From Synechococcus sp. ROS8604 (GTDB lineage Bacteria > Cyanobacteriota > Cyanobacteriia > PCC-6307 > Cyanobiaceae): a DNA stretch of 64,000 nucleotides. Below the pieces are notes generated by a model. That model was not told the DNA's origin. It ran no database searches and saw only the letters and a list, made by a program, of their open reading frames with translations. The stretch lies in the NCBI RefSeq assembly GCF_014279655.1, contig NZ_CP047946.1:558001-622000 (forward strand), given 5' to 3'. The position numbers and the translations under genes were made by a program. Below are positions 1,140 to 62,581 of this stretch, piece after piece (position 1 is the stretch's first letter; each line of letters begins with the position of its first letter).

Positions 1140-2333
1140 TTAGTAATCGACACCGCGCTTGAGATCAACGCCCTGCTCGGCGTAGTGCTTGTGGCACACC
1201 ATCTCTGAATGGACGCTTGCAAGGTCGAAATAGGCCGGCTGGTGTTTGCACCGGCCGGTAATAATCACCTCCGTCTCTGTGGGCTTACGGAGCAAGGCCT
1301 GAACGATGGGTTCAACCGGTAGAAGCTCGAGATCCACTGTGGGGTTCAACTCATCGAGAATCACGGTTTTGTAGAGCCCACTTGCGATCGCAGCTCTGGC
1401 GATTTCCCAGGCGCGTTCTGCTTCTACGTAGTCGATGGGTTGTTGCTGGCCACGCCAAACGATGGCATCACGCCCTGAGCGAAGGTGATCGACCAAATGG
1501 GGATAACTCTCACGCAAGGCTGCGATCGCGGCGTCTTCTGTATACCCACTTCCTCCTTTAAGCCATTGCAGGATCAGTACGCGATGGCTTTTGTCCTGGC
1601 TGATTCCTCTGCCGATCGCTTGCAGAGCTTTTCCGAGGGCACTGGTGGATTTCCCTTTTCCTTCACCGGTGTAGATCTCGATGCCGCCTGCCGTGACAAA
1701 CGACAGCGCTGCGTTGTTGTCCACCTCTGGGCGTCGGTGCGCGCGCATTTCAGAGTGAAGATCTGCAATTTCCACTAATGGGCGTGGAGCTCCACGCCCG
1801 GTGACGATGATTTCCATGCCTTCCGGTCGGCTCTTCAGCGACCGAATCACATCTTCGGTTTCGAGTAAGCCGAGATCCAGCACTGGATTGAGTTCATCGA
1901 GAACGACGACGGAGTACAAAGCGCTTGCAATGGCTCCTTTGGCGATGTCCCAGCCCCGTTGAGCTTCCTGTCGGTCGAAGCGTTTCACCTCATCCACACT
2001 GAAATAGTCTCCCCGGCCCGTTCGAACCTGATCAATTAAGTGGGGGAAACCCTGTTGCAGAGCTTCGATCGCGGCATCTTCGTCGTAAGCCCGTCCTGGC
2101 CCTTTGAGGAATCGAAGCAACAGAACCCTTGTGCGTCTTTGCTCGCAGATCCCAAGGCCGATGGTGCGCAGCACAACACCCAAGGCTGCTTGGCTTTTGC
2201 CCTTGCCCTCACCGTCATACACATGCAACTGACCGAGGCTCCGCTCGCGGCTGTCAGCAGCCGTGACGATTCCGACGCCGCGGTTGCCGCGAGAGCGGTT
2301 GGCTTGTGACGTACCGGATGAGACTGCATCCAT
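1140..2333 (-). CDS. cobO: Tandem-domain corrinoid (cob(I)alamin) adenosyltransferase, CobO/BtuR family
   Basis: About 397 aa made of two BtuR/CobO domains in tandem, each starting with a P-loop GEGKGKS (Q or T follows) and each repeating the block DEDAAI/TEDAAI...PHL...R(T/S)GR and the VVLDELNP / VILDELNP strand. CobO adenosylates cob(I)yrinic acid a,c-diamide on the way to adenosylcobalamin. Usual family members have one domain of about 200 aa, so this is an internal duplication or fusion. I chose the ATG at 2333 (MDAVSSGTSQ); the open frame extends further upstream but that stretch lies antisense to the larE start and shows no homology. It is convergent with moeB, with only 6 bp between the ends. 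Marine Synechococcus make cobalamin-type corrinoids, which fits. Confidence 0.88.
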   Translation of the reverse strand: MDAVSSGTSQANRSRGNRGVGIVTAADSRERSLGQLHVYDGEGKGKSQAALGVVLRTIGLGICEQRRTRVLLLRFLKGPGRAYDEDAAIEALQQGFPHLIDQVRTGRGDYFSVDEVKRFDRQEAQRGWDIAKGAIASALYSVVVLDELNPVLDLGLLETEDVIRSLKSRPEGMEIIVTGRGAPRPLVEIADLHSEMRAHRRPEVDNNAALSFVTAGGIEIYTGEGKGKSTSALGKALQAIGRGISQDKSHRVLILQWLKGGSGYTEDAAIAALRESYPHLVDHLRSGRDAIVWRGQQQPIDYVEAERAWEIARAAIASGLYKTVILDELNPTVDLELLPVEPIVQALLRKPTETEVIITGRCKHQPAYFDLASVHSEMVCHKHYAEQGVDLKRGVDY

Positions 2334-2393
2334 TGGCGGGAAAAGGATGAGTCTTCTTACGCTGGGAGCATACAGAGATTTCGAGCAACGGCA

Positions 2394-3233
2394 GTGACCA
2401 ACGTGATCTTCCGCCAGCTCGAATCGTTGTCCGAGCTGGAATGTGACCTCTTGGAGCGGTTGCGTAATGACGTTGCGGCTCAGAAGCACGTGTGTGTTGC
2501 TTATTCGGGTGGTGTTGACAGCAGCCTCGTTGCAGCAATCGCCCATGAGCAGCTCGGCGAACAGGCCTTAGCGATTACGGGCGTTTCACCCTCCCTAGCG
2601 CCCCATCTCCTGGTGGAAGCACGTCAGCAGGCAGCCTGGCTTGGGATGCGGCATCAGGAGGTGTCCACTCTTGAGCTTGAAGATCCGAGTTACACCAGCA
2701 ATCCTCAGGACCGTTGCTATGCCTGCAAGCGAGAGCTGCATCGCCATCTCGCTCCGATTGCGGCTGAAGCCAACGGCGCCCTTGTCCTCGATGGGGTGAA
2801 TCAAGATGATTTAGGTGATCATCGTCCTGGGATTGCGGCAGCGCTGGAAGCTGGTGTTCGCTCCCCATTGGCTGAACTTGGCATCACGAAGGCGACCGTT
2901 CGCCGCTTGTCTTGGGCGCTTGGTTTCCCTTGGTGGGATAAGCCTGCGCAGCCTTGCCTTGCTTCCCGCTTCCCCTACGGAGAAGCCATCAGCAGTGAAC
3001 GCCTTCAGCGGGTGGGACAGGCAGAAGCCTGGTTGATTCAGCACGGATTTGATCAGGTTCGGGTGCGTAGCCACGGACTGGCGGCTCGGGTGGAGGTTCC
3101 AGAGGAGCGAATTGCCGATCTTTTGCAGCCTTTGCTGCGGCGTGAATTGGTGAAAACCCTTCTCAGTCTTGGTTTCACCTCCGTGAGTGTGGACGTGGAG
3201 GGTCTGGTGAGCGGCAAGCTCAATCGCGTTTAG
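2394..3233 (+). CDS. larE: LarE-family ATP-dependent sacrificial sulfur transferase
   Basis: PP-loop ATPase motif SGGVDSS near residue 40, followed by the LarE-specific segment RCYACKRELH and the later PCLASRFPYGE containing the Cys equivalent to the sulfur-donating Cys176 of Lactobacillus LarE. Three Cys (CxxC plus CLASR) are arranged as in LarE proteins that hold a [4Fe-4S] cluster instead of sacrificing a Cys; that reading is inference. LarE sulfurates the nickel-pincer precursor of lactate racemase cofactor. No larB, larC or larA is visible nearby, so the in vivo acceptor is open. GTG start at 2394; the gene is divergent from the corrinoid adenosyltransferase with 60 bp between starts. 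Confidence 0.82.
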   Translation: MTNVIFRQLESLSELECDLLERLRNDVAAQKHVCVAYSGGVDSSLVAAIAHEQLGEQALAITGVSPSLAPHLLVEARQQAAWLGMRHQEVSTLELEDPSYTSNPQDRCYACKRELHRHLAPIAAEANGALVLDGVNQDDLGDHRPGIAAALEAGVRSPLAELGITKATVRRLSWALGFPWWDKPAQPCLASRFPYGEAISSERLQRVGQAEAWLIQHGFDQVRVRSHGLAARVEVPEERIADLLQPLLRRELVKTLLSLGFTSVSVDVEGLVSGKLNRV

Positions 3234-3275
3234 ACGTTCGATCAAACATCGACTTCGTAACGACTGTGGCGCTGG

Positions 3276-4712
3276 TTGCCCGCTCTGAATAGTTTCTATA
3301 AAGATGAATCCTTTCTTGTGGCACTGCATCAATCCCGTCATTATCTCCATGACAGTGAGGAGCAGGCCATGGTTGATGCCATGCTCTCTCCGCTGCCAAA
3401 GCATCATTTCCCAGGAGTAGGGCGTGAGGGCAATTCCACAGTGCAACTTTTGAAAGAAGAGTTGCTTCTTGATGGAAATAGTAAGCAGAACTTGGCCACA
3501 TTTTGTCAGACCTATCAAGCGCAAAGTGCGATGGAGTTGATGACTCTGGGAGTGGATAAAAATCTGATCGATAAAGATGAATATCCTCAGACGGCGGAGC
3601 TTGAGAGTCGCTGCGTTTCAATGATGGCCGACTTGTGGAATGCCCCTGGTGCCGCCGTTGGATGCTCCACCATTGGCAGTAGTGAAGCGGCCATGCTTGG
3701 AGGGATGGCCGCGAAGTGGCGGTGGCGCAAACGTCGCGAGGCGGCAGGCTTGCCAACCGATAAGCCCAACATGGTGTGTGGCAGTGTGCAGATCTGCTGG
3801 AAGAAATTTGCGCGCTATTGGGATATTGAAATGCGTGAATTAGAGATGCTTACTGGTGAATTATGTATCAGTCCTGAGCGTGTTATCGAGGCTGTGGATG
3901 AGAACACGATTTTTGTGGTGCCCACGCTTGGGGTGACGTATCACGGCCTTTATGAGGACATTGAGTCCATCAGCAAGGCTTTGGATGACCTTCAGGCTCG
4001 TACAGGCCTTGATGTGCCGATTCACGTGGATGCGGCCAGTGGTGGCTTTCTTGCTCCGTTCTGCGCACCGGATCTCCCCCTGTGGGACTTTCGCTTGGAA
4101 CGCGTGAAATCGATTAATGCTTCAGGCCATAAATTTGGTTTGGCACCCCTGGGCGTGGGCTGGGTTCTCTGGCGTAGTCAGGATGATCTGCCCGATGAGC
4201 TGGTCTTTCACGTGACCTATCTGGGTGGAGACATGCCGACATTCCAGATTAATTTTTCAAGGCCGGCAGGTCAGGTGATCGCTCAATATCACGAATTTGT
4301 GCGCTTAGGTCGAGAGGGCTATCGCATGCTTCATATGGCCAGTCATGCCAATGCGCAGTACTTCGCCGAAAAATTACGGGAGATGGACCTGTTCAAAATC
4401 ATCCATGACGGTGCTCCCGACCAGGGCATTCCCACCGTGGTTTGGACTCTTGATGACAATCCGGATCATGGCTTCAACCTCTATGACTTTGCCGATCGGT
4501 TGCGGATGCGTGGCTGGCAGGTGCCTGCCTACCCCTTTACAGGAGAACTGGAATCAACAGCCTTCCAACGAATTTTGGTGAAGCGAGACTTCACTCGCGA
4601 CATGGCGGACCTGCTTCTGCAAGACATCAGGCAAGCCATTGAACATTTTCAAAAGCACCCGATTACGAACAATCTGCTCGCCGCAGAGGCGGCGTCTTAC
4701 AACCACCTCTGA
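3276..4712 (+). CDS. gad: Glutamate decarboxylase (PLP-dependent, group II)
   Basis: Highly similar in layout to GadB: DGNSKQNLATFCQTY near residue 75, the substrate and PLP loop GCSTIGSSEA, HVDAASGGF with the PLP-contacting Asp, and SINASGHKFG with the Schiff-base Lys. It converts glutamate to GABA and CO2 in the cytoplasm, consuming a proton. Length (478 aa) is normal for the family. The first in-frame start after the upstream stop is TTG at 3276; an ATG occurs only about 31 codons later, inside the region with an ordinary family N-terminus, so TTG (or the GTG in the first 15 codons) is preferred. The next gene, speD, is convergent with about 15 bp between the ends. Confidence 0.93.
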   Translation: MPALNSFYKDESFLVALHQSRHYLHDSEEQAMVDAMLSPLPKHHFPGVGREGNSTVQLLKEELLLDGNSKQNLATFCQTYQAQSAMELMTLGVDKNLIDKDEYPQTAELESRCVSMMADLWNAPGAAVGCSTIGSSEAAMLGGMAAKWRWRKRREAAGLPTDKPNMVCGSVQICWKKFARYWDIEMRELEMLTGELCISPERVIEAVDENTIFVVPTLGVTYHGLYEDIESISKALDDLQARTGLDVPIHVDAASGGFLAPFCAPDLPLWDFRLERVKSINASGHKFGLAPLGVGWVLWRSQDDLPDELVFHVTYLGGDMPTFQINFSRPAGQVIAQYHEFVRLGREGYRMLHMASHANAQYFAEKLREMDLFKIIHDGAPDQGIPTVVWTLDDNPDHGFNLYDFADRLRMRGWQVPAYPFTGELESTAFQRILVKRDFTRDMADLLLQDIRQAIEHFQKHPITNNLLAAEAASYNHL

Positions 4713-4727
4713 ACCCAGGTCTTGCAC

Positions 4728-5237
4728 TCAGGCCGCGATCGGAACGGCCGGCATCCGCTCGGTTGTTCCAAGCGCTGCCGGTGTTTCCCGTAAGAAGCTG
4801 CGTAGGGCGTGACGACCAGCACCTAGGTCTTCGCACAGCACCTCACAGGCTTTCTCCGGCATGGTGTGGTCACCACAGGTAAAAACATCCACGGCTGCGT
4901 ATCCGTTTTCAGGCCAGGTGTGAATGGAGATGTGGGATTCAGCCAGGAGTGCCAGACCTGTCACCCCTTGGGGTTCGAAGCGGTGGGTGATCAGGTTGAG
5001 CAGAGTTGCACCAGCACGGTGGGCTGCTGTCGTGATGGTGTGTCTGAGAAAAGTTTCGTCGTCGAGCTTTGAAGGATCGCAGTCGTAGAGCTCGAGAATG
5101 CAGTGTTTACCAACCATGTCGGTTGCACTGGTGTCGGTTGCACTGCGCGTGGTCGCGTCGGAGCTGAGGTCTGTAGTGCTCTCTTTCGTCGCCCATCCCG
5201 GGTTGGGATGCAGGCTGAACAAGGACTGCTCCATCAA
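4728..5237 (-). CDS. speD: S-adenosylmethionine decarboxylase proenzyme (bacterial type 1B)
   Basis: Contains the self-cleavage site [13 protein letters not shown]: cleavage between Glu and Ser generates the pyruvoyl cofactor from Ser. Other family landmarks are DCDPSKLDD, GxTLLNLxxHxF and FTCGDH. It makes decarboxylated SAM for spermidine synthesis. The chain has about 40 extra residues before [14 protein letters not shown], where typical short proteins begin; that extension contains a Thr/Ser/Asp-rich repeat (TSATD), so the true start could be the internal ATG of MVGKHC near 5117. It is followed closely on the same strand by nothing, and preceded by recF with about 27 bp between them, possibly co-transcribed. 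Confidence 0.92.
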
Positions 5238-5264
5238 GAATCTTCATGTAAATGGCTCGCGACC

Positions 5265-6383
5265 CTACCGCGTCTCGGACTGTGATCTCAAGCTGTCTGC
5301 CTCGAGAATCTGCGACTGCTCACGCCATCCGCCTTCAAAGGCGTCGAGATGGGTGGCACTAACAAGGCATTGATGGTTTTCTCCAACGGCCTCGAGGAGG
5401 GCCAGCTGCCGTGTGGGGTCGAGTTCTGCCAAAACGTCATCCAGCAAAAGAAGGGGAGGTTCGCCACAGAGTTCCCCGACCAGTTGTAACTCCGCCATCT
5501 TCAAGGCCAGCACTAGGGTGCGTTGTTGGCCAGATGAGCCGAAACGTCTTGCCGCGGTTCCATTGATCCGCATTTCGATTTCGTCGCGATGAGGTCCAAC
5601 TCGGCAGCTGCCTAAACGTTCTTCTTCCTTGCGTTGGTCTCGGAGCTGTTGCTCAATCGTCAGTCGCCAGGATTCCTCCTGTTCTTCTCCGATCAAGGCA
5701 CTGCCAGGGGTGTAGCAAAGCTGAAGTTGCTCCCGGCCTTCACTCAGCCTGTCTTGCCATACAGCGGCTAGGGGCTCTAGTCGGGCAAGGGCTCGCAGAC
5801 GCCTGCGATGAATGCGTGTGCTCACAAGAGCCATTTGGCTATCAAAGCTTTCGAGGAGCGCTTGCGGTTCCATGCCTGTTGATAACCCTCCCCGTCGCCA
5901 GAATTGGGCCCGCTGTCTCAGCAAGCGCCCGTAGCGACTGATGAGATCGGCATAAACAGGCTCCAGCTGAAGCACAACACGATCGAGCCACTGGCGGCGC
6001 AGGGCGGGCTCGCCTCTCACGAGATGCAGGTCGAGGGCGCTGAAGCCCACGCAGCGCAGAGGACCAATCAAGTCCAGCTGTCGTTGCAGTGGTTTCCCGT
6101 TGCGCTTGGCTTGGCGGCCGCCGCGGCGACGCAGTTCCAGTTCAAGGATCTGCTGGTCTGCGCAGGTTGCCTTTAGCAGGGCACGGCTGGCGTCCCAATG
6201 GATGAGATCTCCATCCTGGCTGGCTCGGTGCGAGCGCAGGCTGCCGAGGAGCTCCACGGATTCCAGCAGGTTTGATTTGCCCACACCGTTGCTACCGATC
6301 ACCAGGAGGCGTGGTGCTTTGATCTCCAGCTGCAGGTTGCTGTGATTGCGAAAGCCCTGCAGTTGAAGCTGGAGAAGCCGAAT
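5265..6383 (-). CDS. recF: RecF, DNA repair and recombination ATPase
   Basis: SMC-like ATPase with Walker [10 protein letters not shown], signature region [15 protein letters not shown] and Walker [15 protein letters not shown]. RecF with RecO/RecR loads RecA at gaps. The canonical N-terminus reads (I)[20 protein letters not shown], but no ATG/GTG/TTG precedes it after the in-frame TAG: the codon in the expected place is ATT at 6381-6383. A GTG at 6302 lies just before Walker A and would delete the first beta strand, so I annotate the ATT start (372 aa, a normal RecF length) as inference. Upstream of the start lies tRNA-Arg on the other strand. Confidence 0.88.
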
Positions 6384-6466
6384 TGGTCCGAATGCGTCGT
6401 GTCGCTAAGGTACTTGGATCGGCTGATTTTGCCGATCAATACCGGCAGCTGTCGCGGCAGCCGCAG

Positions 6467-6540
6467 GGGCATGTAGCTCAGTTGGATAGAGCATCAGATT
6501 CCGGTTCTGAGGGTCGGGGGTTCGAGTCCCTCCATGCTCG
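6467..6540 (+). tRNA. tRNA-Arg (anticodon CCG)
   Basis: Cloverleaf read by eye: acceptor GGGCATG pairing with CATGCTC (one G-T), D arm GCTC/GAGC, anticodon stem TCAGA/TCTGA around loop TTCCGGT giving anticodon CCG, T arm GGGGG/CCCTC with TTCGAGT loop, discriminator G. CCA is not encoded. It would read the CGG codon. Confidence 0.95.
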
Positions 6541-6561
6541 TGATACTTCAGGCTCCAGCCT

Positions 6562-7023
6562 TTATCGGAGCCTCAAGCCCATGGCGCGAATCCCGCCAGG
6601 GTCAAGGATAAACCCTTGTTTTTTCAATCCCTCAAGTGCAATGGCGGGTGCGGAGATCGAGATGCTGCATCCTGGCAATTCTTTTTTTAAGCTTGCAAGG
6701 GCGTGATGCAACAAGGCGTTTAGTAGCGCGTTCTGGTCGTCGCCAGGACAGGCGGCGAGATTCCAGAGATTGGCATTTAAGGCCAGGTCACTCGTGGCTC
6801 GAATGAAGCCAACCAGCGTTTGATCGCGCTCGTCGACGATGCTGAGCTGCCAGAGGCTGCGACTAAGAGCTAAAGACCAACGCTCCTCGGGATGAGCGGG
6901 CTCACCGCATGAGATCAGCAGCGCGTTGATTGCCTCACCGCTCGGATAGGGCTCAGTCTGCAACCGGTAGTGGGTAGGCAGTCTTGGTGCAGCGGCTTGC
7001 TGCCGGAATGGAAGCGGTGACAC
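6562..7023 (-). CDS. GNAT-family N-acetyltransferase
   Basis: 153 aa with a GNAT fold layout: beta strand LVGFIRATSDL, then LWNLAACPGDDQNALLNALL in the acetyl-CoA binding region (the Q/RxxGxG/A motif is weak), and the closing GFILDPGGIRAMGLRL strand. Substrate unknown. GTG start at 7023, directly abutting the stop codon of ppc (7024-7026), so the two are very likely translated from one message. Similar small GNATs often follow ppc in marine picocyanobacteria as far as I recall; that part is memory, not sequence evidence. Confidence 0.75.
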   Translation of the reverse strand: MSPLPFRQQAAAPRLPTHYRLQTEPYPSGEAINALLISCGEPAHPEERWSLALSRSLWQLSIVDERDQTLVGFIRATSDLALNANLWNLAACPGDDQNALLNALLHHALASLKKELPGCSISISAPAIALEGLKKQGFILDPGGIRAMGLRLR

Positions 7024-10000
7024 TCAGCCTGTATTGCGCATGCCTGCAGCGATGCCGTTGATGGTGAGAAGTGCACCGCGCAGGAGCTCGCTACGGCTGT
7101 AGGTGCGTCCGTCTCCGTCGCTGCTGGGCGATTCACTCATCGGAGGTTGACGGTTTTGATCTCTCAGGCGACGCAACAACGCAACTTGAAGAAAGCCAAG
7201 CGGAACGATCGTGCGATTGCGTAGATCAACCGAGAGCTGCAGGGCGGGATCGGCATCAAGAAGCCTCTCCTGGCCTGTGATGGCCAACACAAGCTCCTTC
7301 GTTCGTGCGTATTCCTCGGCTACCGTCGCGTAAATCTGTTCAAACGCTTCGTGGTTCTCAGCACTGCCCAAACTGGTCACGTAATGACGCGCTAAATCAA
7401 GATCCACCTTGGAGAGCGTCATCTCCACTTTGGAAATCAGCATGCGGAAGAAAGGCCAGCGCTGATGCAAGGTGCGCAACAAGGTGAGTTGGTCTGGATC
7501 GGCCTCCAGCTCTTCACTCAGGGCTGAACCAACTCCAAACCAGCTGGGTAGTAGGAAGCGGCTCTGGGTCCAACCGAACACCCAGGGAATGGCCCTCAGA
7601 CTGGAAAGGTCCCGAGCGCCTGTTTTCCTTCGTGCGGGGCGACTGGAAATCTGCAGTTTGCTGATTTCCTCGATGGGAGTGACCTGTTGGAAAAAGGCGA
7701 CAAGATCAGGGTTGTCGTGCACCAAGGCCCTGTAATGGCGCCGTGAGCTCTTGGCGACCCGGGACATCAATTCATTCCAGCTCGGTGTTGCATCGAGTTG
7801 GTTGGTCACCAGGCTGTTTTGGACAACTGCGGTGGTTACTGTCTCAAGGTTGTAGAGGGCCAGCTCCGGCAAGCTGTACTTCGAGGCCAGGACTTCGCCT
7901 TGCTCCGTAATTTTGATGCGTCCCTGCAGAGTGCCACTTGGCTGAGCCAAGATCGCTTGGTAGGCCGGGCCACCACCACGCCCGACAGACCCGCCACGCC
8001 CGTGGAATAAACGCAGGGCAATGCCCTGACGAGATGCCAAATCTTGCAATGCGATCTGGGCTTGATGGATCTCCCAGTTGCTGGAGAGAAACCCTGAATC
8101 CTTATTGCTATCGGAGTATCCGAGCATGAGCTCTTGCAGAAGCAGCCCCTGGGTGCCGACCTTGGGCAACAAATCTCGATAGAGCGGGGTCTGGAATAGT
8201 TGCTCCATCACCTCAGGGGCCCTTTGCAGATCTTCCACGGTCTCGAACAGTGGGACGACAAGGAGGTCGGCATGGCGGGACGACGGATCAACCAAGCCCG
8301 CTTCTTTTGCGAGCAGAAGCACCTCGAGTAAATCGGAGACGCTGTGACTCATTGAGATCACGTAGGTCCCACAAATACGGCTACCGAATTCATCCTGCAA
8401 ACGGTGGAGCATCCGGAATACGTCCACCGTTTCAGCTGTGGCCGCAGACCAGCTAACAGCCGGTGGAATCAAGGGACGACGCGTTTGCAATTCCTCCATC
8501 AACCAGGCCACTCGCTCCGCCTCGTCCATCTCTCCGTAGGCACGATCTGGATTGATGTAGCGGCTTAGTTCGTCAAGGGCATCACTGTGTCGCGTGCTTT
8601 CTTGCCGAATGTCGAGACCTGCCAGTGAAAACGCAAAAATATGCACTTGCGTGAGCAGGGTGTCGAGGGGTTCACAGCTCAGATCTGTGTTGACCAAGCT
8701 GGTGCGGATCAGTTCGAGCTCGCTGCGGAACTCAGCAATCGAGCCGTAGTGGAGAGCATCACTTGGGGCGTTACCTGGAGTACTGGATGGCAATCCTTCA
8801 GGCGGGGTTCGCCAACCGGCATCAGCCAGTTGCTGGTTGCGCAACTGTGTGAGACGTAAGCGCTCCAACACGAAGCTGAGCTTGAGCCGATAGGGCTCAA
8901 GCCGGTATCGGGTGGCACGCTCCTCATAGACATCTGGGAAGCGCAGTCGGTCCATTTCCAAGGATTCGAGCAGTGGAGCACTCACCTGGCTCCATTGCAT
9001 GGAAATGCTGAGTTGATTGCGAAGGTGTTGAACGGCGCTCACGTACCGGTCAAGCATTAACTGGCGTTGATAACAGGCTGTACGCCAGGTGATTTCAGTG
9101 GTGACGGAGGGGTTTCCATCCCGGTCGGATCCCACCCATGATCCAAACGTGCAAAACGATGACGAAGGAACCCTGACGTCTGGATAGCTCGCCGCAAGGG
9201 ACGCGACGATCCGCCGCCGCAGCTGCGGCATGGCATTGAACAGAACCTGCTGGAAGTAATGGAGGGCGTAGTCCACTTCATCCAGAACCGATGGCTTGAA
9301 CTGATGGAGCTCATCGGTTCTCCACCAAAGCCGAATCTCTTCTTCCAGCTGAAGTCGCACGCTGTCTGTAGCCCCTGAGGGTGTCAGTGGCTGCGTCTCA
9401 AGTTGCTGCAGGAGACTGGCAACGCGTCGCTGTTTATGGCGCACGGTATGGCGCACGATCTCCGTGGGGTGGGCCGTGAAGACCAAACGGATATCGAGTT
9501 CTTGGAGCAGGGCCTCAAGCTGGGCTGGAGGAACGTTGAGTCGTCTCAGGCGTTCAAATAATTCTCTAAACGTTGCCGGTTCGGTCTGGGTGGCTAGAGG
9601 CGGGGCAAAGGGATCGAATTGCTCTGCCTGGTCTTGGGATCGATTAATGCTCTCGAGGTAGGTGTCCTCTTCGATGCGTTGTTCCAGGATGTTGACGAGC
9701 TGGAAATACAACGAGAACGCTCTTGCGGCAGCGATGGCCTCGGCAAGATCCATCTCTTTAATGAGATCAATCAGTGCATCGGTTCCAGCTGGATGCTCGC
9801 CAGGAAGGACCGGATCACTGAGCTGCTTCATTCGCAGCAGTCGCTCGGCCTGCTCCGGTGGACATTCGCTGCGCAGAACCGTTCGCCACAGGTCTTCAAC
9901 CAGAGCAAGCCGTTGCTGCAGGAGCTGTCCACCGCCTGCTTCGTTGCCATCAGCCCTGGGCTGTGTGCTCTCAGGAATCAGGGCTGAGGACGAATGCATC

Positions 10001-10035
10001 GATGGGAAACCGCTATCAGATGGAATCATGATCAT
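7024..10035 (-). CDS. ppc: Phosphoenolpyruvate carboxylase
   Basis: 1003 aa, full length. Catalytic His in [12 protein letters not shown], substrate loops [29 protein letters not shown] and the glycine-rich [28 protein letters not shown], and the C-terminal MRNTG that closes the active site. The enzyme carboxylates PEP to oxaloacetate, an anaplerotic route needed because cyanobacteria draw off 2-oxoglutarate for nitrogen assimilation. Its start overlaps the gshA stop by 4 bp (10032-10035), and gshA in turn overlaps trpE, indicating one leftward operon trpE-gshA-ppc-GNAT. Confidence 0.98.
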
Positions 10036-11177
10036 CCCAAAGCGTCAGCGAGGAATCGGTCGACCGGCTGTTCTTCCTGTTCCATCTCGAGAATTCCCGT
10101 GCGGAATTCCTCTTCAAGGCTGCGTCCACTCTCGATTCCTTTGAGCCAACGCATGGCTTGATTCCCTTCTGCGAGAACGACTTCGAGAGGAAGCAAGCAA
10201 GATGCAAGGCCAAGCTCGTGCGCTGCAGGCATCACGGCGTTGATCATGTCCTTGAGCCAGTCACGACATAACCGTTGGCGACCATCACGCCAATCATGCA
10301 ACTGTGCATCGAGGCTATGCCTGGCGGCAGCGGCGTCATTGCGATCGCTGAGCACCATGAGCTGGTCGGCGCTCAGGTCACTTGCCTTGAAGGGGTCGAG
10401 TTGTTCGGGCTCCCGAAGCAACATCAACACGCGCAGTTCCATCAGGGCAGTAATCGCCAGCAGCAGATCTGGATTGGTGACGAGATCGCAGATCCGTAGC
10501 TCGAGCCGGTTGAGGTCAAAGGGCCGCTGTGGACCATTGGGACGGACGGACGTCCATAGATGGCGCACGTTGTGCATGCGCCCCTCCACCAGCTGGATGT
10601 CAGTCCATTCAACGAAATGCTCGAGATCGCGAAACAGGGGGACCTGTTTGGGAGTGAGGGGGAATTGCAGCCAACGTTGTGAATGGGCGCCGGTGATCTG
10701 GCGGTTGAGAAAGGGTGAACTAGCGCTCAGGGCAAGCAGAAGGGCTGCTTCACAACGCACAAGCCGAAGAGCGGGAAATAAATCGGCCGGTTCACTGATC
10801 CCCAAGTTGATATGGATGCTGGCTGTGACGACCGTGGTGCCATAGGTGGCTTCGATCAGGTCGTGATAAGGGTCGTTTGGATTGGATCGTTCAAATCGCG
10901 TGGCATCTCCCAAGGTGAGAGTGCTGCCTGGGAGCAAGGTGAGATCACGTTCTGCAAGCCAAGTCCGTAGGCGCCGGCGGGGGGCTAGAAGGGCTTCTTT
11001 GAGTTTTCCATAATCGGATTCAGGCTCTGTGATGTATTCCAGATTGCGGTGGTCGGGCTCCACGCAAAATTCAGTGAGATCCTGCTTGACCAGCTCTGCT
11101 ACACCAACGTTTTCACCGGTGCTTCGACCGGTGAACAGCTCTACTTCAAATCCTTTGAGTCTGAGTTTTTGGATCAT
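10032..11177 (-). CDS. gshA: Glutamate-cysteine ligase, cyanobacterial (GCS2-like) type
   Basis: 381 aa. Landmarks of the GCS2/plant-cyanobacterial group: [14 protein letters not shown] at the N-terminus, [13 protein letters not shown] (a glutamate-binding Glu region), SIHINLGI and [14 protein letters not shown] followed by the RLELRICD motif that lines the ATP/metal site. It forms gamma-glutamylcysteine, the first step of glutathione synthesis. Starts in a 4-bp overlap with the trpE stop and ends in a 4-bp overlap with ppc, so expression is coupled to both. Confidence 0.88.
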
Positions 11178-22426: not shown

Positions 22427-22497
22427 GGCGGCATGGCCAAGTGGTAAGGCAGAGGATTGCAAATCCTTTATCCCCAGTTCGAATCTGGGTGCCGCCT
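22427..22497 (+). tRNA. tRNA-Cys (anticodon GCA)
   Basis: Acceptor GGCGGCA pairs with TGCCGCC, D arm GCC/GGC, anticodon stem GAGGA/TCCTT with loop TTGCAAA (anticodon GCA), T arm CCCAG/CTGGG with TTCGAAT, discriminator T. It runs antisense to the start region of the LpxB-like gene. Its 3' half is the integration site of the element that follows. Confidence 0.96.
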
Positions 22498-22499
22498 TT
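22467..22499 (+). repeat. attL: 33-bp att core within tRNA-Cys 3' end
   Basis: Identical over all 33 bp to 28570-28602. It runs from the 3' side of the anticodon stem through the T arm and acceptor to 2 bp past the discriminator. After insertion the tRNA is left complete. Confidence 0.93.
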
Positions 22500-22501
22500 A
22501 A

Positions 22502-22551
22502 GAAATTCCCTGAGAGTGCTGACTGTGATTGCATTCTCGGGGATTTCTTTT
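22502..22551 (+). terminator. Rho-independent terminator just inside the element, downstream of tRNA-Cys
   Basis: Stem 22502-22519 pairs with 22531-22547 (about 16 pairs including G-T, one bulge), followed by TTTT. As it lies inside attL, the element itself supplies the terminator for the tRNA it entered. Confidence 0.8.
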
Positions 22552-22562
22552 GGGACGACACG

Positions 22563-22582
22563 GGTAGGTAAACGGTAGGTAA
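22563..22582 (+). promoter_or_regulatory. Paired GGTAGGTAA sites (putative left arm-type recombinase sites)
   Basis: GGTAGGTAA occurs at 22563-22571 and 22574-22582, 11 bp apart, 64 bp inside attL. The same pair with the same 11-bp spacing recurs near attR. Tyrosine recombinases often bind short repeated arm sites flanking the core. Confidence 0.6.
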
Positions 22583-22782
22583 CCGTCTGGTTCCTTCCAG
22601 TCTCCCAAACGTCCGAGAACTTACCTGCTTCACCTCTGCTGAGGGGGGTTCTGAACGCAAGTGGTTTTGCGTGAAACCGCTGCCCCTCTGTCCCAAAACC
22701 CAAGAGTTGCCAGGACGCCAAAAACTGCCGTCACAACAGGGGTTTTGCCGTGTTCAAAACTCTGTACGGTTGATTTGTGCTG

Positions 22783-22799
22783 AAAACCCACTGGGTTTT
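22783..22799 (+). promoter_or_regulatory. Small inverted repeat directly before the serine recombinase start
   Basis: AAAACCC-ACT-GGGTTTT, a 7-bp perfect inverted repeat ending 4 bp before the ATG at 22804. It occupies the place of a ribosome binding site, so it may be an operator or a translation-control hairpin. Function is inference. Confidence 0.4.
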
Positions 22800-22803
22800 G
22801 ACC

Positions 22804-23382
22804 ATGTCGCGATCAATCGGGTACGCCCGCTGTTCCACCACCCACCAAGACACCGCTGCTCAGACCGCTGAACTGAAGGGTGCGGGATGCGTGCAGGTGT
22901 TTGCCGAGAAGGTGTCCTCTCGTGCACCGCTGGAGAAACGTCACCAGTTGCGTGCCTGCCTGGAGACGCTGCAGAAGGGAGATGAACTGGTAATTTCCAA
23001 ACTTGACCGCTTGGGACGGTCCCAGGTGGAGGTGATCAACCGTCTTGCTGACCTGCAGGAGAAGGGAATTCACATCAGGACCCTGGATGGACTGATCAAC
23101 ACCAGAGGACTGGGACGACTCGCCCCTTTGGTGATTGGACTGCTGACGGGTCTTTCTGAGGTTGAGAGGTCATTGATCCAAGAACGCACCAGAGAGTCCG
23201 TTGAACACCGCAGGAAGACGGGTGGAAACCTTGGTGGGAGACCCAAGACCTCAGAGAAGAAAGAACGTCTTGTGCTGCGTCTGAGGAGTGAGGGGGAGTC
23301 CTACAGGTCGATTCGTGATCAAACAGGGATCTCTGTATCAACGATTCAACGAATCCTCCAGAACCAGGAGGTCGCGTCATGA
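22804..23382 (+). CDS. Small serine recombinase (resolvase/invertase family)
   Basis: 192 aa from the ATG at 22804. Catalytic N-domain: IGYARCSTTHQDTAAQ with the nucleophilic Ser near residue 11, LVISKLDRLGRS (conserved D and R residues) and ERSLIQERTRES at the dimer helix. C-terminal Hin-type helix-turn-helix: SYRSIRDQTGISVSTIQRIL. The layout and length match Tn3/Hin-type resolvases. In an element that already has a tyrosine recombinase it may resolve dimers or invert a segment. Stop overlaps the start of the next small gene (ATGA at 23379-23382), so they are coupled. Confidence 0.93.
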   Translation: MSRSIGYARCSTTHQDTAAQTAELKGAGCVQVFAEKVSSRAPLEKRHQLRACLETLQKGDELVISKLDRLGRSQVEVINRLADLQEKGIHIRTLDGLINTRGLGRLAPLVIGLLTGLSEVERSLIQERTRESVEHRRKTGGNLGGRPKTSEKKERLVLRLRSEGESYRSIRDQTGISVSTIQRILQNQEVAS

Positions 23383-23552
23383 CCAAGATCGATATCCAGT
23401 ACCAGGATCAGTTCGGGAGATGGAGACACCTCCAGACCAAACACAATGAAGGTGATGCGTATCGCTCTGCCTCTCACCGCGCACGATCGACCGGGAAACG
23501 CCATCGACTGGTGGATCAAGACGGAACTCTTCTGGACTTGATCGATCCCTGA
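23379..23552 (+). CDS. 57-aa protein translationally coupled to the serine recombinase
   Basis: ATG at 23379 overlaps the recombinase stop by 4 bp. The product (MTKIDIQYQDQFGRWRH..., ending LLDLIDP) looks like a small beta-rich domain with the pattern QYxDxFGRWRHLQT...AxRxAxSxAR...HRLVDxDGxLLDL, reminiscent of short phage/plasmid proteins. No family is recognised and the function is unknown. Confidence 0.6.
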   Translation: MTKIDIQYQDQFGRWRHLQTKHNEGDAYRSASHRARSTGKRHRLVDQDGTLLDLIDP

Positions 23553-23955
23553 AATAAAAATCAAATAGTTAATCTATAAAGAGTGTATAGGGATCCTATT
23601 TGCCGAAATCAGTTTAAAAATATTGCTGCCTTCTGCGCCTCTTGTTGCCTAACCCTGTAAACACAAAGACTCGCTTGACCTGTATGAATAATCTCTGTAT
23701 AATTGCTGAACACAAAGACAAAGATATTTAGACCCTCTGCAGAGGTAGAGATCGTCAAACTTTGCTTTAAGAGTCTCTGGAGTCCATTGGATTCCCCAAG
23801 GGACTCGGTGTACCCAGAGATAACCCTTAAATCTCAGAACTATTCCATAAGACCAGTAATACCAATGAGTTACCCCAAGTCAACCAAAACAAATCACCAG
23901 AGAAGAACCGATCGAAGAGAGGTTCATTCACGACCAACGGGAGTGAATGAGTCAA
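23553..23955. other. AT-rich non-coding stretch upstream of the hairpin and HUH-like gene
   Basis: 403 bp with low GC compared with the rest of the window and no convincing long gene. An open frame starting at 23865 (ATG, 42 codons, very basic, ending at the TGA 23991-23993) would overlap the TTG start of the next gene in a TTGA junction; it might be a coupled leader peptide but cannot be supported further. The stretch is a plausible site for a promoter or replication origin. Confidence 0.5.
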
Positions 23956-23998
23956 GATCCTCAAGGACGTTTCTGAATCAGAAACGTCCTTGAGGATC
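23956..23998 (+). promoter_or_regulatory. Perfect 20-bp hairpin at the start of the HUH-like gene
   Basis: Positions 23956-23975 pair without a mismatch with 23979-23998, loop AAT. There is no T-tract after it, so it is not a simple terminator. It contains the TTG start codon (23990) of the following gene. Candidate roles are a nick site or single-strand origin for the HUH protein, or a translation switch. Confidence 0.75.
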
Positions 23999-24544
23999 CA
24001 TCAAGAGACCAGTTCTCATCCAAAGGTCCTCCAGGAACTGATCAGAGATCAATGGGAGAACAATTTCCAACCCCAGTGGTTCATCACATTGCTATGGAAC
24101 GATCTCCCCACTCAATTCGATGTAGTTAAGGGTCATGCAGGAACATTTAGGAACGTCTTTTTGACCCAACTCATGGATTGCAATTCACCCACCAGGATTC
24201 CTGATCCTCCAGAACGACCATCCTTGATCTTTATGCAGGAGAGGAAACCAGTGATCGTTAAAGGACGACAGATCACTGCATTCCACACCCATCTCCATCT
24301 GGGTGCTCTACCTGACCCTCTGAACCACCTCTGGTACCTGGATCACCTGATTCATCAGAAGGTTTCTCCAAAGGTCCGGAAACTCCTCAAGACCACCTCA
24401 GAGGGGAACAGGGGTGTGGTGATCAAACCCTGGAACTGGGATCACCATGCGTTCTACAACCTGAAGGATTACTACTCCTACAGACACCATCAGGATCCTG
24501 ATTTGGTTTTGGACTATGAGAATTCAGACCTTCTCTTTAACTAA
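23990..24544 (+). CDS. Putative HUH-type replication/relaxase protein (Rep-like)
   Basis: 184 aa. Three stretches match the order of Rep HUH endonuclease motifs: motif I-like WFITLLWND (residues ~29-37), motif II-like FHTHLHLGA (His-x-His-x-His, ~98-106) and motif III-like AFYNLKDYYSY (Tyr...Lys...Tyr, ~154-164). Proteins of this class nick at a hairpin and become covalently bound through Tyr. The adjacent 43-nt hairpin and the CopG-like gene downstream fit a small rolling-circle-plasmid-like module. The only start after the upstream stop is TTG at 23990. Assignment is by motif reading only; similarity could be spurious. Confidence 0.55.
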   Translation: MRIHQETSSHPKVLQELIRDQWENNFQPQWFITLLWNDLPTQFDVVKGHAGTFRNVFLTQLMDCNSPTRIPDPPERPSLIFMQERKPVIVKGRQITAFHTHLHLGALPDPLNHLWYLDHLIHQKVSPKVRKLLKTTSEGNRGVVIKPWNWDHHAFYNLKDYYSYRHHQDPDLVLDYENSDLLFN

Positions 24545-24561
24545 TCACTTTTACAAACATT

Positions 24562-24807
24562 ATGAAACTCAAATTCTACGACCAGATCCCTTCTGCGCAA
24601 ATTACCTTGTCAATAAGAGAACTGGTGATTCTTCAGTCACTTGCATCAAAACTTTTGACAGAAGACAAAATTTATGAATAAGCACTCCCTACTCTTTGCA
24701 ATGAAGAGGATTCAGAATCGATTGTGGAGTTCGCTAAACAGTTAAGAGAAGAACTCGACACCTTGGTTGATGAGTCAGTTCTCACTCTTCCGTCAAAGAA
24801 TCTTTAA
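24562..24807 (+). pseudogene. Small gene interrupted by one in-frame TAA (39 + 41 codons)
   Basis: ATG at 24562 opens MKLKFYDQIPSAQITLSIRE..., reaches TAA at 24679-24681, then the same frame continues for 41 sense codons (…EEDSESIVEFAKQLREELDT…) to TAA at 24805-24807. Both halves have coherent helical character, so this is either a recently inactivated ~81-aa gene or one that needs readthrough. Product unknown. Confidence 0.5.
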
Positions 24808-24816
24808 ATAGAATAA

Positions 24817-24847
24817 ATAGAGATGTCCCCACCAGAGACATCTCTAT
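24817..24847 (+). promoter_or_regulatory. 11-bp perfect hairpin overlapping the next start codon
   Basis: ATAGAGATGTC (24817-24827) pairs perfectly with GACATCTCTAT (24837-24847); the ATG of the following gene is at 24846-24848, so its first two bases lie in the 3' arm. Probably a translation control element or terminator-like structure. Confidence 0.65.
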
Positions 24848-25031
24848 GAAGACCCTTGCCAAACCAGATCAAAGGAATATCAATCTGTTCTTTGGGAAAA
24901 GGAATCAGACCACTCTGCAAAAGTTTGATTCCTTATACCATCAACTCAGACGATCCAGAACGGGTACTCTGGATTTCTTGATCACTCACTATGAATGGTT
25001 CCAGAACAATCGTAGTGAGGTGGTCAGATGA
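24846..25031 (+). CDS. 61-aa protein of the element, unknown function
   Basis: Basic, helical (GKRNQTTLQKFDSLYHQLRRSRTGTLDFLITHYEWF). The pattern RxQTTLQKFDSL... might be a small DNA-binding fold. The stop overlaps the start of the ribbon-helix-helix-like gene (ATGA at 25028-25031), so both are translated together, as in antitoxin/toxin or copy-control pairs. No homologue is recognised. Confidence 0.55.
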   Translation: MKTLAKPDQRNINLFFGKRNQTTLQKFDSLYHQLRRSRTGTLDFLITHYEWFQNNRSEVVR

Positions 25032-25174
25032 ATATCACCATTCGGTTGACCAAGGTTGAGCACGAGATGCTGAAGGAACTTCAGAAGAGGGACAAGAGGT
25101 ACAAGAAGGGATTGGAGGAAAAGTTTATGTCTGAAATGATTCAAGATTTCACCCTTCTGAGAAAGAAGCGGTGA
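25028..25174 (+). CDS. Ribbon-helix-helix-like (CopG/Arc-type) small protein
   Basis: 48 aa: the N-terminal strand MNITIRLTKVE followed by helices HEMLKELQKRDKRYKKGLEEKFMSEMIQD matches the ribbon-helix-helix layout. CopG-type repressors control Rep synthesis in rolling-circle plasmids, consistent with the HUH-like gene 0.5 kb upstream. The last 26 bp overlap the 3' end of the minus-strand TPR gene. Function is inference. Confidence 0.55.
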   Translation: MNITIRLTKVEHEMLKELQKRDKRYKKGLEEKFMSEMIQDFTLLRKKR

Positions 25175-26405
25175 TTCCTTCAGGCAATTCATTGTAGATC
25201 TCAAATCCACCTTTATTCAACAACTGAATACAATCAGATTCACTTGCGCCGCCTAGGCACAGTTTAATCAGAGGAGAAAGGATTTTGCTTCTTTCTAGAT
25301 CACTATTACAACAGTGTCTGGTCAGTTTAATGGGGATGCATCGACGCTCTTTGATTGGATTCTCAAGAAAACTCTTATATTGCGACAGGTCATGCTTTGT
25401 ATCCCCAGAAAATACAAATTCTTGGGAACCATGTTTGTCGACATTTTTTAGAGACTTGTATTTCCATTCTTTAATGCTGTTTATCCTCTTCGCGACACGT
25501 TTATTTCGTCTCATTGTGGCAAAAAGTGATGGATTGTAGTCAGGGAAAACGGTATATTGAGGTGAAAATGCAATGATTGTCTTTGCATTAAGCAAAGGTC
25601 CCAGGAATAATGCGCTGGTGGCATTGCTGCTAACTCCAATGGCGACCACTTCAGAGAAAGATCCGAATAATGCAAAAAAATCCTTTAGGACATCCGTATC
25701 AATAGAATTTGACCAGGTCTCTTCTTTGTCAATAATCCTGAAAACATTGGCATTTTCAAAATCTGTATCTACAAAAGTACTTTCTAGATTAAGAAGTGCA
25801 CCCCCACAATTGACTATGCACGTCGTGCTTTCTTGAACATGTTTGGCGAGTATGCGCAAAAATTCATCTTCGTAGAGGAGAATGAACTGATTTTGCTTTT
25901 TTCTGAATCCCTTTTGAACTTTTATTTTTGCTTCCTCAAGCCGTTTGAGTGCAACGAGATCTTGTGCTGCACGTCCATAACCATTCCAGTTGTCTGGATG
26001 GTGAGTGATTAAGAGTTCAGAATATTCAAGAGATTTTTCACGATCATTAGATGCACGGAAGACATCCGTTGCAATCGTCAGGAGGTTGACCTGGTTAGGG
26101 AGTTTCTCCAGTCCTGATTGAATTTGTTTCTGTGCTTCTTCAAACCGCTTGAGTGCAACTAGTTCTTGTGCTGCACGACCATATCCATTCCAGTTGTCTG
26201 GATGGTGAGTGATTAGAAGTTCAGAATATTCAAGAGATTTCTCACGATCACCTGATGCACGGTAGATATTAGTTGCAATGGTGAGGAGATTGATCTGGTT
26301 AGGGAGTTTTTCTAGACCTATCGCCAGTTCTTCTTTTGCTGCGCTGAGATCTTTGGATTTCAGTAGTTTTTTGATTTTATCTGCGAACGTCTTCCAGTCG
26401 CTCAT
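25149..26405 (-). CDS. TPR protein with degenerate alpha/beta-hydrolase-like C-terminal domain (cargo)
   Basis: 418 aa. The first ~170 residues are tetratricopeptide-like, with two nearly identical 68-residue units (each LEKLPNQ(I/V)NLLTIAT... to EYSELLITHHPDNWNGYGRAAQ). The C-terminal part has IVNCGGALLNLES, VVAIGVSSNATSALFLGPLL and TIIAFSPQYTVFPDYNP, recalling a serine-hydrolase nucleophile elbow (GVSSN instead of GxSxG), as in TPR/polysaccharide-associated proteins of marine cyanobacteria. Likely cargo acting on the cell surface or glycans (inference). An 11-G tract lies 7 bp upstream of the ATG. Confidence 0.7.
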   Translation of the reverse strand: MSDWKTFADKIKKLLKSKDLSAAKEELAIGLEKLPNQINLLTIATNIYRASGDREKSLEYSELLITHHPDNWNGYGRAAQELVALKRFEEAQKQIQSGLEKLPNQVNLLTIATDVFRASNDREKSLEYSELLITHHPDNWNGYGRAAQDLVALKRLEEAKIKVQKGFRKKQNQFILLYEDEFLRILAKHVQESTTCIVNCGGALLNLESTFVDTDFENANVFRIIDKEETWSNSIDTDVLKDFFALFGSFSEVVAIGVSSNATSALFLGPLLNAKTIIAFSPQYTVFPDYNPSLFATMRRNKRVAKRINSIKEWKYKSLKNVDKHGSQEFVFSGDTKHDLSQYKSFLENPIKERRCIPIKLTRHCCNSDLERSKILSPLIKLCLGGASESDCIQLLNKGGFEIYNELPEGITASFSEG

Positions 26406-26411
26406 GGGTTC

Positions 26412-26422
26412 GGGGGGGGGGG
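26412..26422. repeat. Homopolymer of 11 G upstream of the TPR gene
   Basis: Eleven consecutive G on the plus strand (C on the coding strand), 7 bp before the TPR start codon. Such tracts slip during replication and can alter spacing to the ribosome site or promoter. Confidence 0.9.
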
Positions 26423-26511
26423 ATAGGTAATTATTGCATGGTCTGCTCTTCGTAGTGACTAGAGGGTCGTGATGAAGTCGCTACCCTTTGTTTGCCCAAG
26501 ACCAATTGCAT

Positions 26512-26856
26512 ATGGTCGCTCAAAAACTGCGAGTGATTCAGTCCAACGAGATGGGGTTTCGCTCTGCGGTTGGTGATGTGTGCTGGTCGGGTCTCAAATC
26601 CTTTACTGCCAAAGAAGAGAAATCTGGGTCAACGCTTAGGAAGACACTATTCATTTTGAAAAGATCAGACGGTCTCCGCGATTTTGCGGTTTTTGATTCT
26701 GTCTTTAACCACTTCAGAGACACTGACAGTAAATATGTCTTTGAGATCACTTCTGCCCCTATCGCGCTTCGGGATCAGATGATGATGGTTCATCTGATGT
26801 CTCGGAAGGATGTCAAACTTTCCGCAGTGGAACTGGTAGAGGAATTTGGTGAGTGA
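26512..26856 (+). CDS. Hypothetical protein of the element (114 aa)
   Basis: ATG at 26512 (an in-frame TTG at 26488 would add 8 residues). Mixed alpha/beta composition, with KTLFILKRSDGLRDFAVFD and KYVFEITSAPIALRDQMMM. No recognisable family. It is divergent from the TPR gene. Confidence 0.5.
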   Translation: MVAQKLRVIQSNEMGFRSAVGDVCWSGLKSFTAKEEKSGSTLRKTLFILKRSDGLRDFAVFDSVFNHFRDTDSKYVFEITSAPIALRDQMMMVHLMSRKDVKLSAVELVEEFGE

Positions 26857-26865
26857 GTCTGGTTT

Positions 26866-27030
26866 TCATGAATCGTGAACGTATGGATCTCGCATCCAGT
26901 CGGTCCCGGTCGCTCCTTTGAGTTGTCCACGACCAGTTGCGAGTGCGTCAGTCGCTCTCTTCGCGTCGTAGTGGAAGTAGTGCTCCTGGACGTACTGGAT
27001 TGAGGTGTCGCAGTTGTTGCTTGAGTGCTG
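26866..27030 (-). pseudogene. Remnant of the C-terminus of a second tyrosine recombinase
   Basis: The minus-strand frame reads NNCDTSIQYVQEHYFHYDAKRATDAL... and ends in a stop at 26866-26868. The segment TSIQYVQEHYFHYD resembles the catalytic Tyr region of phage-type integrases (GTSxxMIExHYxHL). No R or HxxR box exists upstream in this frame, because there the neighbouring integrase gene is read instead. It is therefore a decayed fragment, likely from an earlier integration. Confidence 0.5.
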
Positions 27031-27031
27031 A

Positions 27032-28438
27032 TTAATAGTCCTCGTCTGTTCTCTTGACCATCGTCCACTTCCCTTCTTCAATCGTTTGACGCGATTCGTG
27101 TGCTGTCCGCTCTGCATCGATGTATCTCAGGTATGTGTTCCTGAGTTGGTCTGGACTGGTGTGACCGTTGTCCGCGAAAGAGTTGATCTTTGGAGGGATT
27201 GCTAATCCAGGGTCTTCTTCAAGGGTTAAACGAAATGCCGTGTGTCGAATGGTTGTCCATTTTCTGCCTGATGCAGGGAACTCGTTTTCGAAGGTTTTCG
27301 CCATTACGTGCTTAAGAAGGAAGTTCAGAGTCTTCAGGACATGACTGTCTGCCGGATTGCCTTCTGGTCTCTCGATCTGAGGAAGAACCAGGTATCCAGA
27401 TGGTTTCCTCCTATGGAGTCGTTCCCAAAATCTGAATCCATCTTTTCTGTAGTGGGTCGTTTGATGAATTGGACGATCCTTTTTAGTTGTCTCCAAATTG
27501 CAGACAACAGTTTGGTTCCCCTGGTCCCTGAACCACTCGCTCTTGATTCGGTACATGTCTTCTGCTCGCAGGTAAAAGAACCACTCCAAGAGAAGTGCGT
27601 CATAGAGATCGCCCCAGTTGCGTTGGTTCAGTCGATTGCTCTTGCTCCACTCCAACTCCCAGTACTCGTCTGGATCCAGGAGTTGTCTCGCTGAGTCGAG
27701 AGACAAGTCCACCACTGCTGCCAGGAGTTGGTCCCACTGCTTTTGTGTCAGATGCTGAACCTGTTTGGTCTGCTTGCTGATCGCAGGGAATCTTGGAAAT
27801 GCATGTCCAGGGAAGTCGTCCTCTGCCAGTGCCAGGAGTTTGTTGATCAGGGTCTTCTGCTGCCCCTTCATCCCACTGCCATTGGATCCGCCGCTTCCAC
27901 GTGCACGTCTCTCCATAAGAGAGAAGTAGTCCTTGAAGTCCTGACTCGTAATCAGGTCAACGCTTCTGGACGCCCATGGTTGGTGACGGATGCCGTATTC
28001 GCTTGCTTCCCATTTCAGGGACTCCTCTCGCTTCCACCGCTTGAAATTGCGTTGGGTCTCCCGAGTTCGGGATTCAGACGTGAAATACCGCTCCCAATAC
28101 TCGCCAAGTGAGTTCTTGCTCTGTTCTTCCTGTAAGTCCAGGACTGCTTTGCTTTCGTCCTGCCACTTCTGGAACAGGGTGACCGACCTCTTTGCCGCCT
28201 CGTGAGGGTCTTCTGTCCCCGTGGTCCTCTGGATGGTCAGACGCTTCCCTAGACCTCCCTTAGATCGCCCCTGATGGGGTCTTGGGTCGTCGCTGGGGTC
28301 TGGTAACCACTCTGCGTACAGAACCCGTGTATGGGTCTGTCGCTTGATCCTGAGGTTCTGCGGGTACGAACCACGCACTCCAAAAACCTTCGACACGTTC
28401 AGGGTCGTCCAGTTCTCGGGGAGTGATGCTTTGCCCAC
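27032..28438 (-). CDS. int: Tyrosine recombinase (integrase) of the tRNA-Cys element
   Basis: 468 aa. Arg box YLRAEDMYRIKSEW (~residues 290-300), His-x-x-Arg box TTIRHTAFRL (~390-400) and the C-terminal FADNGHTSPDQLRNTYLRYI with the presumed nucleophilic Tyr. Residues ~100-200 look like the SAM-like core-binding domain and the N-terminal 90 residues like an arm-binding region. It reads away from attR, starting 130 bp from it, with the arm-like repeats in between. GTG start at 28438. It is long for the family because of the N-terminal extension. Confidence 0.9.
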   Translation of the reverse strand: MGKASLPENWTTLNVSKVFGVRGSYPQNLRIKRQTHTRVLYAEWLPDPSDDPRPHQGRSKGGLGKRLTIQRTTGTEDPHEAAKRSVTLFQKWQDESKAVLDLQEEQSKNSLGEYWERYFTSESRTRETQRNFKRWKREESLKWEASEYGIRHQPWASRSVDLITSQDFKDYFSLMERRARGSGGSNGSGMKGQQKTLINKLLALAEDDFPGHAFPRFPAISKQTKQVQHLTQKQWDQLLAAVVDLSLDSARQLLDPDEYWELEWSKSNRLNQRNWGDLYDALLLEWFFYLRAEDMYRIKSEWFRDQGNQTVVCNLETTKKDRPIHQTTHYRKDGFRFWERLHRRKPSGYLVLPQIERPEGNPADSHVLKTLNFLLKHVMAKTFENEFPASGRKWTTIRHTAFRLTLEEDPGLAIPPKINSFADNGHTSPDQLRNTYLRYIDAERTAHESRQTIEEGKWTMVKRTDEDY

Positions 28439-28443
28439 CTCGC

Positions 28444-28519
28444 TTACCTACCTGGGTCTTGTCGCCCAGTTCTGAACACTGACCCACTTTGCCGTCTCTG
28501 GTAGGTAAGTGGTAGGTAA
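28444..28519 (+). promoter_or_regulatory. Right-end GGTAGGTAA sites between integrase and attR
   Basis: One inverted copy at 28444-28452 and a tandem pair at 28500-28508 and 28511-28519, with the same 11-bp spacing as near attL. They lie between the int start and attR, so they could serve as recombinase arm sites and as autoregulatory operators. Confidence 0.6.
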
Positions 28520-28569
28520 GTTGTCGGTTTTCTTCGACTAGACCCCCGTGTTTATAGGGTTTTTATCTG

Positions 28570-28602
28570 TTTATCCCCAGTTCGAATCTGGGTGCCGCCT
28601 TT
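28570..28602 (+). repeat. attR: second 33-bp att core
   Basis: Exact copy of 22467-22499 without the rest of a tRNA. It marks the right end of the element; the chromosome resumes at 28603. Confidence 0.93.
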
Positions 28603-53593: not shown

Positions 53594-53694
53594 TGTTGGG
53601 GGGAGGGAAAAAGAAGGCTTCATCACAGACGGGGGTCGGATGAAGCCAATGTGCGTCGAAGAAGTTGGAAGGGATGGGTGAATCCCTCCTTAGG

Positions 53695-55341: not shown

Positions 55342-55436
55342 GGGGGGTTGAGGGAGAGGGAAGGGAGAGGTGGTCGCTGGGGGCGACGGCAAACTAAGGA
55401 TTGGCGAGACAGGCAATCGCCAATCCAGGATTAGGT

Positions 55437-57180: not shown

Positions 57181-57185
57181 GGCAA

Positions 57186-62455: not shown

Positions 62456-62581
62456 CTGTTATGGCTCTGCCGTTGTACGAGCGACCCCAAATCAGGTAGC
62501 AGGTTGGCGATTGGCAGCACGCCTACAGCTTCCAATGCCCATGGAGAGGTGACTCCATTGCGTCGATCAAGATTCAGTCAA

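Follow-up and report, generated by a model that had tools for sequence, protein, structure and literature searches.

Few plasmids are known from the small picocyanobacteria of the sea, although these organisms do exchange islands. What kind of element occupies the tRNA-Cys gene of Synechococcus sp. ROS8604, and by what machinery might it move and be maintained? The locus lies in a stretch of 64,000 nucleotides (NZ_CP047946.1, positions 558,001 to 622,000), here called the window, and its coordinates are counted from the first base of that stretch. With considerable confidence we read it as an integrative element of a picocyanobacterial tRNA-Cys/tRNA-Phe family, carrying a probably arm-binding integrase, a likely replication module built around a putative Rep protein of the HUH class, and exchangeable cargo.

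Insertion into tRNA-Cys

The element is bounded by two 33-bp core repeats on the forward strand, attL at 22467–22499 and attR at 28570–28602, which are 100% identical and offset by 6103 bp. The tRNA-Cys gene (anticodon GCA, located with ARAGORN) spans 22427–22497 on the same strand; the attL core begins just 5′ of its T-arm and ends 2 bases beyond the gene, whose 3′ end would be restored by the incoming DNA. The G+C content of the element is 0.40–0.50, against 0.55–0.60 in the flanks. The host genome is complete (2.88 Mb) and holds a single copy.

The tRNA-Cys locus was retrieved from 20 congeners. In six of them the window flanks are contiguous at one 33-mer, making these true empty sites, and a window excised in silico, with one repeat and the interior removed, aligns uninterrupted across the junction in all six; the nearest, G126, shows 94.6% identity over 3.5 kb. 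Insertion into tRNA-Cys is precise, with no bases lost or gained. Because the excised window matches six congeners straight across the junction, the element is not a chance arrangement. The original prediction, which described a 6.1-kb integrative element in tRNA-Cys between exact 33-bp att repeats, is therefore borne out, and the empty site with a single 33-bp core that it proposed to seek in relatives exists. The outcome it named as fatal, with all relatives filled and the att repeats decayed, is not what the congeners display.

Across tRNA-Cys elements the identity between core copies always extends from TTCGAAT in the T-loop through the 3′ end of the tRNA, while the bases to the left of TTCGAAT vary (elements L028, L030 and L032). 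This pattern suggests that strand exchange takes place in or near the T-loop. In L028 (3925–3998 and 10507–10574) and L188 (3144 and 15927) a second copy of the beginning of the left end follows directly on the right att site, a sign that insertions may have accumulated in a single tRNA-Cys gene, in tandem or one after another.

The integrase and its arm-type sites

The open reading frame (ORF) at 27032–28438 on the reverse strand encodes 468 residues that match nothing in Pfam or PHROG; its homologues have no meaningful match there either, and a PDB profile search gave nothing meaningful. Comparison by hhalign with Phage_integrase proteins of related genomes yields 93% probability over 267 columns (0.1% for a negative control), and the LRxxE, lysine, RH, GH and tyrosine columns fall in register with the Phage_integrase profile. 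It is because of this profile comparison alone that the ORF is called a tyrosine recombinase, as the original prediction had it. Arg291, Lys319, Arg398 and Tyr436 are invariant in eight homologues, and the ratio of nonsynonymous to synonymous substitution rates (dN/dS) is 0.07–0.12. Matches occur in 43 of 400 genomes of the family. In many genomes the homologous integrases belong to elements that, where their ends are visible, are bounded by repeats of the 3′ end of tRNA-Cys or tRNA-Phe. This divergent recombinase would join the circular form of the element to tRNA-Cys within the T-loop/3′ region.

The two ends of the element carry matching short repeats. On the left, GGTAGGTAA occurs twice at 11-bp spacing (22563–22582, forward strand); the same pair recurs at the other end, where TGGTAGGTAAG is repeated at 11 bp (28499–28521, forward strand). 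An inverted right site, GGTAGGTAAG, lies on the reverse strand at 28443–28452, and a weaker match, AGGTAAGT at 22619–22626 on the reverse strand, may be its left counterpart. Within the element, pairs spaced by 11 bp are confined to the two ends.

The arrangement is general. In 19 of 19 integrase loci the stretch from the start of the integrase gene to att holds a motif that recurs at a spacing of exactly 11 bp, as opposed to 12 of 1174 background segments (1%), a count that overstates independence to the extent that some of the 19 loci are close relatives. At the tRNA end, five of the six elements with both ends defined carry this pair again (0 of 1000 shuffles for each; 0 of 3000 random pairs); at several tRNA-Phe loci exact matching detects no second copy at the far end. 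The motif itself differs between elements: GGTAGGTAA in the window element and in G092, GGTAGGAAA in L028, GGAAGGTGA in L029, L114 and L180, and GGTATGGGA in most tRNA-Phe elements. The closer two integrases are, the more alike their motifs tend to be (Mantel r = 0.41, p = 0.004, n = 12 non-redundant integrases), and such co-variation is as expected for arm-type sites. By sequence alone, then, the element displays the feature of lambda-type heterobivalent integrases, arm-type sites flanking the core on both sides. A lambda-like integrase with two domains is the probable identity of the recombinase, which would bind the paired sites on either side of the core.

The sixth bounded element, L069 of Synechococcus UW105 (2003–10368, in tRNA-Cys), is the exception at the tRNA end: its left pairs are TGTAGGGGA and its right pairs GGTAGGTAA. 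Its left arms and serine recombinase differ from its right arms and integrase, and the latter match those of the window; L069 is probably a composite of two elements.

A probable replication module of the HUH class

The frame at 23990–24544 (forward strand, 184 residues) contains WFITLLW as motif I, followed by HTHLH and YNLKD. Two histidines, the glutamate, the tyrosine and the lysine are invariant among 12 homologues that are 33–75% identical, giving the motifs HxHxH, E and YNxK; the HxH metal motif, the tyrosine accompanied by lysine, and the motif order I-II-III are features of HUH Rep proteins. In the predicted model (mean predicted local distance difference test score, pLDDT, 85) the elements run β-α-β-β(HxH)-α-β-α(Y), with motif I on strand 1, HxH on strand 3 and the tyrosine just ahead of a late helix. 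Homologues are present in 22 of 300 genomes of the family, marine and freshwater picocyanobacteria alike; dN/dS among copies is mostly 0.1–0.25, and a more distant protein group has the same motifs (hhalign 97.6%). The 184-residue ORF is thus likely to be an HUH Rep, and the invariant residues support the plasmid-type replication gene that the original prediction had proposed here. Weak matches to dynein light chain in the PDB profile search are unrelated and were set aside.

The most constant partner of Rep is p61, a 61-residue ORF at 24846–25031 (forward strand), which lies downstream of Rep in nearly all loci; p48 (25028–25174, forward strand, 48 residues), which overlaps p61, is present in several. 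The excised circle would probably replicate briefly by means of this module, Rep and p61 together with p48. The module keeps varied company. In L025, L027, L109, L110 and L115–L118 it adjoins genes of the Phage_integrase type, and the tRNA-Cys element L032 has in its place a different protein with similar motifs. Because it stands beside unrelated integrases, is replaced in L032 and is undetected in further tRNA-Cys elements, the Rep module is, by its distribution, exchangeable between elements. In L116 a 44-bp direct repeat (5866 and 12465) surrounds Rep-p61 and a Phage_integrase-type gene, and a search of this locus with ARAGORN returned no tRNA; L116 is a Rep element with another target.

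A hairpin at the HUH gene had been singled out in the original prediction. It is real, a perfect inverted repeat with 21-nt arms and a 1-nt loop at 23956–23998 (forward strand; z = −7.2), but it is not a conserved origin. When the relatives G092 and G115 are aligned to the window, the hairpin in them is imperfect, and the idea that the 21-nt hairpin is a conserved replication origin was rejected for want of the perfect form in relatives. The alignment marks the window hairpin as a mutation specific to this strain, in which the right arm was altered to match the left with a gain of 2 nt, splitting the rep frame into 23703–23993 and 23990–24544. The first part (forward strand), in which the N-terminal portion of Rep begins at about 23867, is ended by the +2-nt frameshift. 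The second part starts at a TTG that overlaps the stop of the first, so coupled translation of the Rep catalytic core is possible.

Weighing the alternatives

Several observations weigh against the main reading. The analysis is one of sequence, in which neither an excised circle nor replication is observed. Foldseek comparison of the Rep model with the PDB returns no match at E ≤ 0.001, and its viral fold matches are weak, the best at E = 5e-3. An AlphaFold model of the integrase from three sequences is unusable (pLDDT 33). The related tRNA-Cys elements L028, L029, L181 and L188 lack any of the Rep types searched; Rep is therefore not essential to the family. Finally, the rep gene is often damaged. 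The window frame is interrupted by 2 nt, that of G092 has an in-frame stop, and UW105 and AG-683-C23 retain C-terminal fragments only; because rep is broken or partial in all four, Rep seems to be dispensable after integration and often lost, although dN/dS among the copies is low. Replication in ROS8604 may be impaired by the interrupted frame.

The same damage would suit a degenerate, immobile remnant whose Rep is broken and which is kept for its cargo only. Such a remnant is unlikely, however, given that the 33-bp att repeats are exact, the integrase and serine recombinase genes and both sets of arm sites are intact, and dN/dS is low; moreover, an element that has lost rep may still excise.

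The HUH-like protein might instead be a relaxase or a Y1 transposase, serving transfer or transposition rather than replication, since the combination of HUH and tyrosine is common to these enzymes in principle. An HxH motif ahead of the tyrosine is the Rep order, the reverse of that in conjugative relaxases; Y1 transposases have the same order as Rep. HxH precedes the tyrosine motif here, YNLKD resembles the YxxK of Rep proteins, and those viral fold matches that bear a name belong for the most part to Rep, replication-associated or NS1 proteins, all of which make this alternative improbable.

A phage satellite, with DNA made by Rep and packaged by a cyanophage, would account for the small size, the pairing of an integrase with a replication gene, and the failure of Pfam and PHROG searches to find conjugation genes. 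We consider it distinctly unlikely, though a gene-poor satellite is conceivable: PHROG reveals no capsid, terminase or packaging match in the element, scans of viral contigs show no relative of the integrase or of Rep, and tblastn detects no Rep homologue among phage genomes. A tblastn search of plasmid collections likewise gave no Rep homologue.

Relation to known systems

An integrative element with a likely Rep of its own finds parallels in other groups. The HUH Reps of microviruses, CRESS viruses and small plasmids resemble the present protein in having motif I, HxH and YxxK in Rep order and in the weak fold matches; the protein differs from them in lacking any significant sequence match in Pfam, PHROG or the PDB, and it is confined to picocyanobacteria so far. 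Integrative and conjugative elements of the actinomycete pSAM2 type join a tRNA-targeting tyrosine integrase to a rolling-circle Rep, a combination that the window element shares with its HUH-Rep-like gene. The latter element is much smaller and resides in another host phylum, and neither DNA translocase nor relaxase or other transfer genes were found in it by Pfam or PHROG.

The closest counterpart is a family of integrases of Prochlorococcus and Synechococcus, cluster158946, described in PMC10187409 as located close to tRNA-Phe or tRNA-Cys genes and frequently accompanied by a small serine recombinase; it is set phylogenetically apart from the tycheposon integrases, and its integration mechanism is given as unknown. 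The present element fits this family by its features, the comparison being one with the published description rather than with sequences: a divergent tyrosine-type integrase missed by PHROG, a tRNA-Cys location, a serine recombinase nearby, variable cargo and a picocyanobacterial host. Exact att boundaries, arm sites and a Rep module go unmentioned in the passages of that account consulted here. The integrase family itself is thus already reported, as is the combination of two recombinases, which the original prediction had considered unusual. That the element is a tycheposon as in Prochlorococcus, a cargo transposon targeting tRNA genes with its own type of tyrosine recombinase, is very improbable: tRNA target, tyrosine recombinase, variable cargo and marine picocyanobacterial hosts are common to both, and the size falls inside the 4–200 kb range quoted in PMC10872708, but because the element has the features of the family that PMC10187409 separates from the tycheposon integrases, the earlier label "tycheposon-like" is unsupported.

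The matched architecture of att and arm sites, and a Rep module common to several elements, appear to be undescribed in the open-licence papers checked. Rather tentatively, and with slightly more doubt than belief, we propose that a class of small integrative plasmids is widespread in picocyanobacteria, defined by a previously unrecognised family of HUH Reps with a 61-residue partner and combined with interchangeable integrases directed to tRNA-Cys and other sites, and with 11-bp-spaced arms that co-vary with each tRNA-Cys/tRNA-Phe integrase. In a family published without a mechanism, the exact att sites, together with the empty sites and the arm repeats, open integration and excision to direct test, and the arm motif offers an annotation-free handle for finding and classifying such elements. 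If the Rep family is active, it would constitute a replication system that current annotation does not name in these hosts, and a possible starting point for vectors.

Other genes of the element

The small serine recombinase (22804–23382, forward strand, 192 residues, with a possible earlier GTG start at 22777) combines Resolvase and HTH domains (PF00239, E = 1.6e-30; phrog_125), in keeping with its earlier assignment, and is retained in related elements. It probably serves in resolution of multimers. Overlapping its stop is p57, a conserved 57-residue ORF (23379–23552, forward strand) with homologues 41–93% identical in related elements. A CopG identity, once proposed for p48, is unsupported, no family match having been found.

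The DNA from p48 to the integrase forms exchangeable cargo. In the window it holds a TPR protein of 418 residues (25149–26405, reverse strand) with two 204-bp repeats, its earlier identification confirmed by PF14559, and a 122-residue ORF (26488–26856, forward strand) that may also be cargo. The TPR protein is missing from the related elements compared and patchy across the family; the 122-residue ORF has no homologue in the elements compared. A PADLOC search for a defence role of the cargo gave no match. The same position in G092 is occupied by a GSCFA-family gene and another ORF. In the sister element L024 a GSCFA-family cargo gene (8170–9303) takes the place of the TPR gene.

The window also contains a tRNA-Phe gene (62581–62655), the other known target of the integrase family; none of its 14-mers is repeated within the window, which speaks against its use as an integration site here. 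Phycobilisome-linker-like ORFs lie upstream of it, at 52859–57932.

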